Assembly: GCF_000515315.1 (NCBI RefSeq)
Contig: NZ_KI911562.1
Coordinates: 2,254,501-2,318,500, forward strand
DNA: 64,000 bases
DNA from: Asinibacterium sp. OR53
GTDB lineage: Bacteria; Bacteroidota; Bacteroidia; Chitinophagales; Chitinophagaceae
Direction of reading: 5' to 3'
The notes below the pieces were generated by a model. The model was given only the letters and a program-made list of their open reading frames with translations. It was not told the DNA's origin and did not search any database. Below are positions 37,459-40,705 of this stretch, in pieces. The translations under genes and the position numbers were made by a program. The stretch's first letter is position 1, and each line of letters starts with the position of its first letter.

Positions 37459-38502
37459 TTATAATGAATTGAGGTATTGAAGTATCTCGGTGAGGTTCTT
37501 CTGTACCGGTGGATCAATCACGTAATGTGTTACTGTGCCTACATCGTTGATGTTTTTGGTGCCCAGGTAAAGATCCGTTCCAATGCGTGATATAGATACC
37601 AGTGTAATCTTGCTTCCGATGGGTATACGCCATGTCGCGAAGGACCTCGAATCAAAATCATCTTTCAGTCTCACTACTGTTTTCTGGTTGGCGAATACAG
37701 CGAATACAACGGTATTTCTATTGGTGAAGTTGGGTGGCAGCACAGCAGTGATCTTGGTGCTCGGAAGTGTACTATCTGTGTACCTGCACGCACTGATCCA
37801 TCGCAGGTTCTTGGAAACCAATTCGTATCCTGTTACAATGGAAGTGTTGGTGCTGTTGGGTTTCGACCAGGTCTTGATCCAGGTAGTATCGAGATCGCGC
37901 AACCAGGTATGCATGGTATCAATATTACCCAGTGTAAGATAAGGGATGGTTTCAGCAGCATAGAATACCTGCATGTTGGGTTTGGGATCCTGTGTATCAC
38001 TGAAGCGTATGGTGATGGTAGCGCCGGGTAAGAGTTTTAATTCATGACCATTTTGCGTTACGCGGATAAAGATACCGCCGCCTGTCTCCAGCAGGTAACC
38101 ATTGCTGACAGTAGGTTTGAAGAATTTGATGAAATCGCCTTTGGTTTTCAGACGGAAGAATTCAATCCGTACGGGACCAGAACATACATTGCTTCCACCT
38201 CCTCCGCCACTGCCACCGCTTCCACCACCGGCATAAGTAAAGGAACTGCCGGGAATTACAATGGAGAGGCTGTCGCCGTAACTCAGTGTATCTGTTTTAG
38301 AACAGTCGAAAGAATCAACTGTGAGATTGGGGAACATCAGCTGAGCCAACTCGTTGAGCGTAGCACTGCCGGTTGCATTTTTCATCCAGGCTGTATCGTT
38401 CAGCGGATGATTGGGATAAAGGATTAGATTGCTTGACAATTCTTTTTTACAAGCTGTAAAGAACAGGAGCGCAATACATCCGATGGTTATAGTCTTTTTC
38501 AT
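37459..38502 (-). CDS. Lipoprotein of unknown function with Gly/Ser linker
   Basis: Protein of 347 residues. The lipobox FFTAC puts the lipid anchor at C18, followed by KKE. After about 70 residues (two Cys at 67 and 107 flank the region) comes a low-complexity linker of Gly and Ser at 91-104. The C-terminal 240 residues are beta-rich with no recognised family. It lies 54 bases after the beta-barrel gene and likely shares the sigma-factor transcript, so it could be the third component of that envelope system, but this is inference. Confidence 0.55.
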   Translation of the reverse strand: MKKTITIGCIALLFFTACKKELSSNLILYPNHPLNDTAWMKNATGSATLNELAQLMFPNLTVDSFDCSKTDTLSYGDSLSIVIPGSSFTYAGGGSGGSGGGGGSNVCSGPVRIEFFRLKTKGDFIKFFKPTVSNGYLLETGGGIFIRVTQNGHELKLLPGATITIRFSDTQDPKPNMQVFYAAETIPYLTLGNIDTMHTWLRDLDTTWIKTWSKPNSTNTSIVTGYELVSKNLRWISACRYTDSTLPSTKITAVLPPNFTNRNTVVFAVFANQKTVVRLKDDFDSRSFATWRIPIGSKITLVSISRIGTDLYLGTKNINDVGTVTHYVIDPPVQKNLTEILQYLNSL

Positions 38503-38555
38503 AGTTAATGTTATTACTACATCCTAGATACAGGTAGTGTTTCGCGCGTTGCCTG

Positions 38556-40019
38556 CTATCTTCTATTTAAATTATATCTTAATCCGATGGCCAATCCGCC
38601 AACGTGAAATTTCTGATTATAGGCGGCCTGATCGGTGGTGATGTTCGACAAATTATACCTGAAATAAGGTTCGAAAAATAACTGGCTGTTTTCACCCAAT
38701 CGTTTCATGAAACTGATGCTGGTGTACAATCCCATGCCGATATTACTTTTATATATAGCTGTGCTTGCTTTGTCGATAGGAACGGTGGCGAGTGATTTAT
38801 CGAGCACCACACCCTGGTACCAGGAAGAGAGATTGAATATCACGCCTGCATTTATACCCACCCTGAAATCATCTTCATCCCTGCCAAACTGGTAACCAAT
38901 TGTTACTGGTACATCGATGGTACGGAAATGATTGGTTACAGTATTATTGCGGTAACCGATCTGGCGCAACACGCTGGTATCGTTGACTATTACGGTATCG
39001 CCCGGCCCCCTAATGATTTGACGTTGTGTAACTACTGTGGTTGTTTTGATTTCGTTTTCACTACGGTAAGCGAATTGTTGATTGATCTGTCCGTATTGCA
39101 AACCTGCTTTCAACACAAAGTTATCGCTGAATGGTTTCACCAACCGCACACCTACACTGAAGCCGGGTTGTGAACTTTCGCTGCTGTCTTTACGCTGCAT
39201 GTATTGCGGGGTAGCCGATACATTCTGCTCGGATTTAAACGCGAGGTCGGGTGAAGCATAGTATTCAACATACCAATCAGGATTCACATATCTTCCGCCA
39301 TTCGCAGTAGGACAAATCAGCAAATTGGGAACGCGCCTGGTATGAGCGGCTGCATTCATCAATTCAAGATTTTTCAATTCTTTCATATCATACAACAAAC
39401 TGTTCCTGTCTGAAGAAAGAGGAGCGGCTGCCAGCAGGTTGAAACGGCTGTCTGCTGATGCTGACTGGATGGGAGCTGCTTGTTCTTGTGATGCAGGATG
39501 ACTATTATAATTGATATCAGCAGCCTGTGCATTTTTGTAAGTAGTACTGCCGGGTGTTATCTGTGCAGATAATGCAAGTTCATTATTGTTGTTCGATTCG
39601 TTGTTGGGTGTATGATTATTATTAAGAAGTGTATTATTTTGAACGATAGCGTTTGGATTTTGCGTGGAATTATTATTAGAAGCTGATTCATTGCCAGCAA
39701 CGGTTTGCTCCTGTGCGTGTTGCTTATCTTGTGTTGTGATTGCAGATGGCTGCTGTGATACCAGTTGTTGGTTCGGTATACCTGAATGATCTGTGCCAGC
39801 TGTATTATTATTGAAATACAGGTATCCTCCAACAGCGAAAGCCCCCAGGAGGGCCAGCGCAATCATGTACCTGCCAAGGGTGTTGATCCGGGGCAGGACG
39901 AAACCTTTACGGTCGTCTTTTTCATCGGGCTTGATCTTTTCCCAAAGACCCGGCGGCACAGGAGCAGAATGGTCTTTGAGCTTTGCCCTGATGAATTGAT
40001 CAAATTGGTTATCGCTCAT
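38556..40019 (-). CDS. Inner-membrane-anchored protein with C-terminal outer-membrane beta-barrel domain (candidate anti-sigma)
   Basis: Protein of 487 residues. Residues 1-48 are a charged cytoplasmic-type segment with VPPGLWEKIK, found in proteins paired with ECF sigma factors in Chitinophagaceae. Residues 50-69 are one membrane helix, 70 to about 195 a low-complexity Asn/Gln/Ser/Thr-rich stretch, and about 265-487 amphipathic strands of an outer-membrane barrel ending GLRYNLNRR. It begins one base after the sigma-factor stop. A tether from sigma factor to outer membrane is suggested by the layout. The barrel part alone would be called an OmpW- or PorT-like domain. Confidence 0.7.
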   Translation of the reverse strand: MSDNQFDQFIRAKLKDHSAPVPPGLWEKIKPDEKDDRKGFVLPRINTLGRYMIALALLGAFAVGGYLYFNNNTAGTDHSGIPNQQLVSQQPSAITTQDKQHAQEQTVAGNESASNNNSTQNPNAIVQNNTLLNNNHTPNNESNNNNELALSAQITPGSTTYKNAQAADINYNSHPASQEQAAPIQSASADSRFNLLAAAPLSSDRNSLLYDMKELKNLELMNAAAHTRRVPNLLICPTANGGRYVNPDWYVEYYASPDLAFKSEQNVSATPQYMQRKDSSESSQPGFSVGVRLVKPFSDNFVLKAGLQYGQINQQFAYRSENEIKTTTVVTQRQIIRGPGDTVIVNDTSVLRQIGYRNNTVTNHFRTIDVPVTIGYQFGRDEDDFRVGINAGVIFNLSSWYQGVVLDKSLATVPIDKASTAIYKSNIGMGLYTSISFMKRLGENSQLFFEPYFRYNLSNITTDQAAYNQKFHVGGLAIGLRYNLNRR

Positions 40020-40020
40020 G

Positions 40021-40557
40021 TTATACAGCAATTTTTTGTAGTTGTAATATTTGTTGTTGCAGCATCTTCCGGGCCTTTACCAATTGGCTGCGGCTGGTGC
40101 CGGGTTGTATGTTCAGCATTTCTGCTATTTCTTCATGACTGTATCCTTCCACCACATTCAGGTTAAAAACCATCCGGTAACCTTCTGGCAACTGACCAAT
40201 CAATTTTAAAAGATCTTCTTCACCCAAATGGCTATAGGTGCTGGGATCCATCTTGGGTGCATCGTTGCTGTGGTCATCGATCTCTTTGAAACGGATCTTC
40301 TTTTTTTCCAAATGCCTGATAGCCGTATTCACCACAATACGCCTGATCCAGCCCTCAAATGAACCTTCCGATTTGAACTGTTCGATGTATTTGAATACTT
40401 TGATGAAAGCGTCCTGCAGCATGTCTTCGGCTTCCATGGTATCGTTGGCATAACGCAGGCATACGCTCATCATCTTACCGGCATACCTTTCAAACAGTAT
40501 ATGCTGGCAACCGGTATGTTGCTTGATACATCCCTTGATAAGTTCAGATTCTGTCAC
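40021..40557 (-). CDS. ECF-type RNA polymerase sigma factor
   Basis: Protein of 178 residues. Region 2 (DTMEAEDMLQDAFIKVFKYI, then FEGWIRRIVVNTAIRHL) binds the -10/-7 element and core polymerase. Region 4 (LPEGYRMVFNLNVVEGYSHEEIAEML, then SRSQLVKAR) carries the helix-turn-helix. The start is GTG at 40557; no ATG lies upstream in frame near enough. It is directly followed by the membrane/barrel gene, which probably controls it. A TATCTTTA box lies about 30 bases upstream. Confidence 0.9.
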   Translation of the reverse strand: MTESELIKGCIKQHTGCQHILFERYAGKMMSVCLRYANDTMEAEDMLQDAFIKVFKYIEQFKSEGSFEGWIRRIVVNTAIRHLEKKKIRFKEIDDHSNDAPKMDPSTYSHLGEEDLLKLIGQLPEGYRMVFNLNVVEGYSHEEIAEMLNIQPGTSRSQLVKARKMLQQQILQLQKIAV

Positions 40558-40587: not shown

Positions 40588-40595
40588 TAAAGATA
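40588..40595 (-). promoter_or_regulatory. Possible -7 box for the sigma-factor operon
   Basis: TATCTTTA (seven of eight matches to TAnnTTTG) on the minus strand, about 30 bases before the GTG start. The rest of the 148-bp spacer is AT-rich without other clear signals. Confidence 0.4.
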
Positions 40596-40705
40596 CCCGT
40601 TGAGGAGGGTTCGTTGCCTGCGAGAAATTAAAAAAAATAAAAAGTTAAAACACGGAATTTTAAAAAAATGTTGATTTCCATCGCTTTACATAGCGGATGA
40701 TTATT

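Follow-up and report, generated by a model that had tools for sequence, protein, structure and literature searches.

The Dma proteins consist of an N-terminal anti-sigma segment, a transmembrane helix, a disordered tether and a barrel, and their genes adjoin an ECF sigma factor gene (PMC13088901). Two members, Dma1 with sigma factor Das1 and Dma2 with sigma factor Das2, have been studied experimentally in Bacteroides thetaiotaomicron (PMC13088901). Dma1 controls Das1 (PMC13088901), and das2 and its downstream genes are raised when dma2 is lost (PMC13088901; Pardue et al. 2026 J Bacteriol). By the account given in PMC13088901, the architecture was first described in 2024 (PNAS) in a gut bacterium. 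The architecture is thus already known and is widespread in Bacteroidota, and the 487 aa protein encoded in the window (the whole stretch of DNA analyzed, 64,000 nt) belongs to the Dma kind.

The locus was likened to Dma1 and Dma2 by their published description. It has the same four-part layout, an ECF sigma factor gene alongside and further genes downstream, and it is likewise from Bacteroidota. There are also differences. The downstream gene here encodes a lipoprotein without a Pfam family, whereas BT_1557 of B. thetaiotaomicron is annotated as DUF4943. A promoter-like motif is repeated at this locus, and some relatives carry 2 to 6 N-terminal modules, unlike the B. thetaiotaomicron proteins as compared. 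Dma3 of B. thetaiotaomicron, also of the Dma family, has a sigma domain at its own N-terminus (PMC13088901), whereas the sigma factor here is encoded by a separate gene. The features of the locus are as follows.

40591–40617, minus strand: promoter-like site GCAAC-N16-GTATCT, 33 nt before the sigma factor start (exact match)
40021–40557, minus strand: ECF-type sigma factor gene, 178 aa, GTG start (Pfam Sigma70_r2, E 2e-17; Sigma70_r4_2, E 1e-16)
38556–40019, minus strand: Dma-type protein gene, 487 aa, ATG at 40019, starting after the sigma factor gene
39927–40019, minus strand: N-terminal cytoplasmic module, residues 1–31, a putative sigma-binding segment (conserved motif and helices)
39804–39881, minus strand: single transmembrane helix, residues 47–72, N-terminus predicted cytoplasmic (hydropathy and AlphaFold2 helix)
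39273–39803, minus strand: disordered periplasmic linker, residues 73–249 (pLDDT mostly < 50, low conservation)
38571–39272, minus strand: predicted eight-stranded outer-membrane beta-barrel, residues 250–483 (PF13568, AlphaFold2, Foldseek)
38934–39068, minus strand: tall hairpin of barrel strands 3 and 4, approximately residues 318–362, predicted extracellular (strands 301–338 and 341–378)
38526–38552, minus strand: second GCAAC-N16-GTATCT site, between the Dma-type stop and the lipoprotein start (exact match, conserved in relatives)
37459–38502, minus strand: predicted secreted lipoprotein gene, 347 aa, lipobox Cys18

The stop of the sigma factor gene and the start of the Dma-type gene are separated by a single base (40020), as the preliminary description of this DNA had pointed out. 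The lipoprotein gene is on the same strand and starts 53 bases past the end of the Dma-type gene. A GCS2-type ligase gene (Pfam), also on the minus strand, is located 5' of the sigma factor gene, and the gene beyond the lipoprotein gene is convergent. Among named relatives, Sediminibacterium magnilacihabitans DSM 22423 is the closest to the region, with 93.3% identity over 6.3 kb, which places the window in Sediminibacterium or in its immediate vicinity.

Loci of relatives were gathered by way of the sigma factor; the Dma alignment has no conserved short stretch. The sigma factor gene is directly upstream of the Dma gene in 30/30 family loci, and in most of these the two genes overlap or abut. 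The sigma factor has a mean column identity of 66% among relatives. In the Dma-type protein the identity differs by part, with 49% in the N-terminal module, 40% in the barrel and 15% in the linker. The constant adjacency, together with conservation of the module and barrel but not of the linker, shows that the sigma/Dma arrangement is not due to chance. It also bears on the idea that the protein has a structural role, tying the two membranes together, and that its sigma factor neighbor is incidental. Taken by itself, the anatomy would be compatible with a tether of this type, but the adjacency at every family locus, the conserved N-terminal module and the multiplication of module copies in some relatives make it very improbable.

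FecR-like anti-sigma factors are common in Bacteroidota, and several other sigma factor genes in the same genome are followed by genes whose products have a transmembrane helix at about residue 90–110. Both observations would suit a relay of that type, in which a TonB-dependent receptor, and not the protein's own barrel, would exert control. There is a general likeness to FecI/FecR/TonB-dependent transducer signaling, in that an event at the outer membrane would reach an ECF sigma factor in the cytoplasm. However, FecR systems employ separate proteins in the two membranes, whereas here the anti-sigma module and the barrel are parts of one chain. The Dma-type protein has no FecR domain match in Pfam, no gene for a TonB-dependent receptor adjoins the operon in the region read, and the score of the sigma factor against TIGR02985 (Bacteroidetes sigma-70 subfamily) is 98.5 bits, below the cut-off of 126.4. 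A FecR-like relay is thus very improbable as well.

A 25-sequence profile and alignment were used for conservation analysis and for AlphaFold2 modeling of the 487 aa protein. The N-terminal module displays the motif FDxFxRxKLxxxxSPVPxxxWEKI, in which D7 and W26 are invariant and L14, P22 and I29 are conserved at 90% or more in the profile. Helices are predicted at residues 3–14 and 25–29. Conservation of this 31-residue module is what is observed, and its role as a sigma-binding segment is putative. The module is, to our knowledge, shorter than the anti-sigma domains of other families, which counts against the reading favored below. Lys and Arg are more common before the transmembrane helix than after it in 81/87 relatives and are fewer in none of the 87. 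The N-terminus is therefore predicted to be cytoplasmic.

The linker is predicted by AlphaFold2 to be disordered from about residue 75 to 242, with pLDDT mostly < 50. It had been described earlier as an Asn/Gln-rich stretch of roughly 190 residues; the composition holds (16% Asn and 8% Gln), but the length is closer to 175 residues. Asn and Gln are both abundant in the window copy, and Asn alone stays high in the linker family-wide. The linker has a median length of 174 residues among relatives, and the 5th percentile is 134. Four lower values appear to result from misplaced profile boundaries, and the floor is near 130 residues. From its chain length, the extended linker would be long enough to span the periplasm.

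A disordered and poorly conserved linker would also fit routine cutting of the chain at this part, which would leave an ordinary inner-membrane anti-sigma factor and a separate outer-membrane barrel with no bridge in the resting state. In addition, loci L126–L127, L130–L134 and L136–L140 have a related sigma factor followed by a short protein of 210–317 aa that carries the module and helix but has no barrel. The N-terminal module is thus a movable part, one that can work without a barrel. The minimum and median lengths of the linker and the retention of the barrel fusion across families argue against routine cutting, and they are explained most easily if the bridge itself matters. Routine cutting is therefore unlikely, though it is a more serious contender than the tether or the FecR-like relay.

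The C-terminal part of the protein matches Pfam PF13568 (E 3e-10). The AlphaFold2 model displays strands at residues 250–266, 281–296, 301–338, 341–378, 385–406, 429–440, 445–456 and 467–483, with strand pLDDT mostly ≥ 90, which is read as an eight-stranded barrel. The best PDB fold matches by Foldseek are outer-membrane barrels, including OprG, OmpW, NspA and OmpA, which have the same eight-stranded fold. These four carry a signal peptide and are free in the outer membrane, whereas the barrel here is fused to a helix of the inner membrane. When the Dma alignment was searched as a profile against the PDB, the single match was in the low-complexity helix and linker part, and it is taken as spurious.

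Strands 3 and 4 form the tall hairpin. It is predicted to be extracellular from the strand order, and its identity among relatives is 40%, equal to the barrel average. This conserved hairpin is a candidate sensing surface. The models bear out the layout proposed in the preliminary description (a short N-terminal segment, one helix, a long linker and a C-terminal barrel), and the membrane barrel, for which a structure prediction had been suggested, is predicted with high confidence. The proposal that a single chain links the two membranes gains support from the predicted barrel, the helix with its N-terminus inside and the disordered linker of periplasm-spanning length, and it agrees with what is described for Dma1 and Dma2.

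The exact GCAAC-N16-GTATCT motif is found before both the sigma factor gene and the lipoprotein gene. A motif common to these two genes is new here. In relatives it was scored as present at ≥ 9 of 11 matches, with expected numbers obtained from shuffles. It is upstream of the sigma factor gene in 52 of 63 relatives (1.0 expected) and upstream of the lipoprotein gene in 35 of 45 (0.25 expected). The spacer has a sharp peak at 16 nt among relatives, with variable bases between the boxes. The distance from motif to start is also steady, mostly 52 to 69 bases for the sigma factor genes. A signal at a 13 nt spacer appears to be an artefact of overlapping GCAGCA-type boxes.

The motif looks like an autoregulated ECF promoter and would presumably be read by the adjoining sigma factor. 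Its presence before both genes predicts autoregulation of the operon and a direct output through the lipoprotein. Across the genome there are 13 exact core sites, compared with 2 in a reversed control, and most of those outside the operon are not just before a gene start. A stricter motif gives 7 sites compared with 2 in the reversed control. For these reasons no wider regulon is claimed. Two intergenic sites in this genome are weak regulon candidates near the chance level. One is 125 bases before an Omp85-family gene (L168:1655–2875), and the other is 20 bases before a gene for a small secreted protein (L173:1550–2113).

The lipoprotein is of no Pfam or NCBIfam family that could be found. AlphaFold2 predicts that it folds well (pLDDT 84.8), and a PDB fold search gave no convincing match, with none at E < 0.001 and a GAIN-domain match at TM 0.28. 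In most family loci a homologue is encoded directly 3' of the Dma gene. The list of genomes with a strong full-length lipoprotein match is almost exactly the same as the list for strong Dma matches. The conserved lipoprotein gene as third member of the operon is new here.

Computation gives the gene order, domains, predicted fold, conservation, shared motif and lipoprotein co-occurrence, and these very probably reflect a Dma-type signaling operon with a bridging anti-sigma protein. The ECF sigma factor would be held at the inner membrane by the 31-residue N-terminal module of the 487 aa protein. The chain would cross the inner membrane once, continue as a disordered periplasmic tether and end in the eight-stranded barrel, anchored in the outer membrane. 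A signal at the barrel, which may be binding of a ligand to the conserved outer hairpin or a faulty state of the barrel or outer membrane, would free the sigma factor, most likely via cleavage of the tether or a pull on it. The free sigma factor would then read GCAAC-N16-GTATCT and raise its own operon and, through the second site, the lipoprotein. This reading is favored because the wiring seen on loss of dma2 in B. thetaiotaomicron is the same as that predicted here. It is favored also by the high-confidence barrel, the constant adjacency of the sigma factor gene, the positive-inside bias of the helix, the motif counts and the co-occurrence of the lipoprotein.

A variant differs from this reading in the signal only. 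The barrel would serve as a self-test of outer-membrane protein assembly, and its failed insertion would free the sigma factor. The case for it is mainly inferential, and the motif sites before the Omp85-family and small secreted protein genes would fit an envelope response. These additional sites are near the chance level, however, and conservation of the outer hairpin to the same extent as the barrel body leans towards a role at the surface. The self-test is a possible alternative, with better prospects than routine cutting of the linker.

The bridging operon places the Dma arrangement, known from gut Bacteroides, in Chitinophagaceae, as a compact three-gene operon with a readable promoter motif. 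Questions about the barrel signal, the release of the sigma factor and its targets can therefore be asked in a simpler system than that of Bacteroides.

The window copy of the Dma-type protein has a single N-terminal module. At least one module is present in 62 barrel-type relatives from the genome collection, and 19 of these (approximately 30%) have two or more, with a maximum of six. This variation in repeat number is new here. The repeat units are about 28 residues, with a range of 27 to 37, and nearly all keep the Asp and the Pro...Trp/Phe positions. A tentative extension, less likely than not, is that in part of the family the cytoplasmic side acts as a multivalent sigma sponge. Each barrel would carry as many as six units of about 28 residues that bind sigma factor, one outer-membrane event would free several sigma factors, and the set-point would evolve by repeat number, with the lipoprotein as a dedicated partner or output and not a bystander. 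The variation in repeat number offers a natural experiment in the setting of anti-sigma capacity. Tandem modules (2 to 6) occupy the N-terminal 30–180 residues in L062, L078, L081, L082, L085, L087, L089 and others, and L081 and L082 have six.

Pairs of a sigma factor and a barrel protein, for which a survey had been proposed, recur across Bacteroidia. By profile search, Dma-family relatives are present in 75 of 247 Bacteroidia genomes, and a sigma factor gene precedes the Dma-type gene in almost every locus examined across the class. The source genome itself has at least four sigma factor genes followed by a barrel protein of the Dma layout (L031, L032, L038 and L044). At L035 in the same genome, a sigma factor gene is followed by a gene whose product resembles these barrel proteins in length and helix position and has no PF13568 match. 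The helix is at about residue 50 in the partner proteins at L031, L035, L038 and L044, three of which have the PF13568 barrel.

Two of the collected loci are unusual. A record titled as a Streptomyces griseus MAG (L114) has an operon of the Chitinophagaceae type and is probably a misnamed or misbinned contig. At L091, a barrel follows the sigma factor gene after a gap of 173 bases, and no N-terminal module or helix was found before the barrel; this may be a frameshifted or degraded copy.
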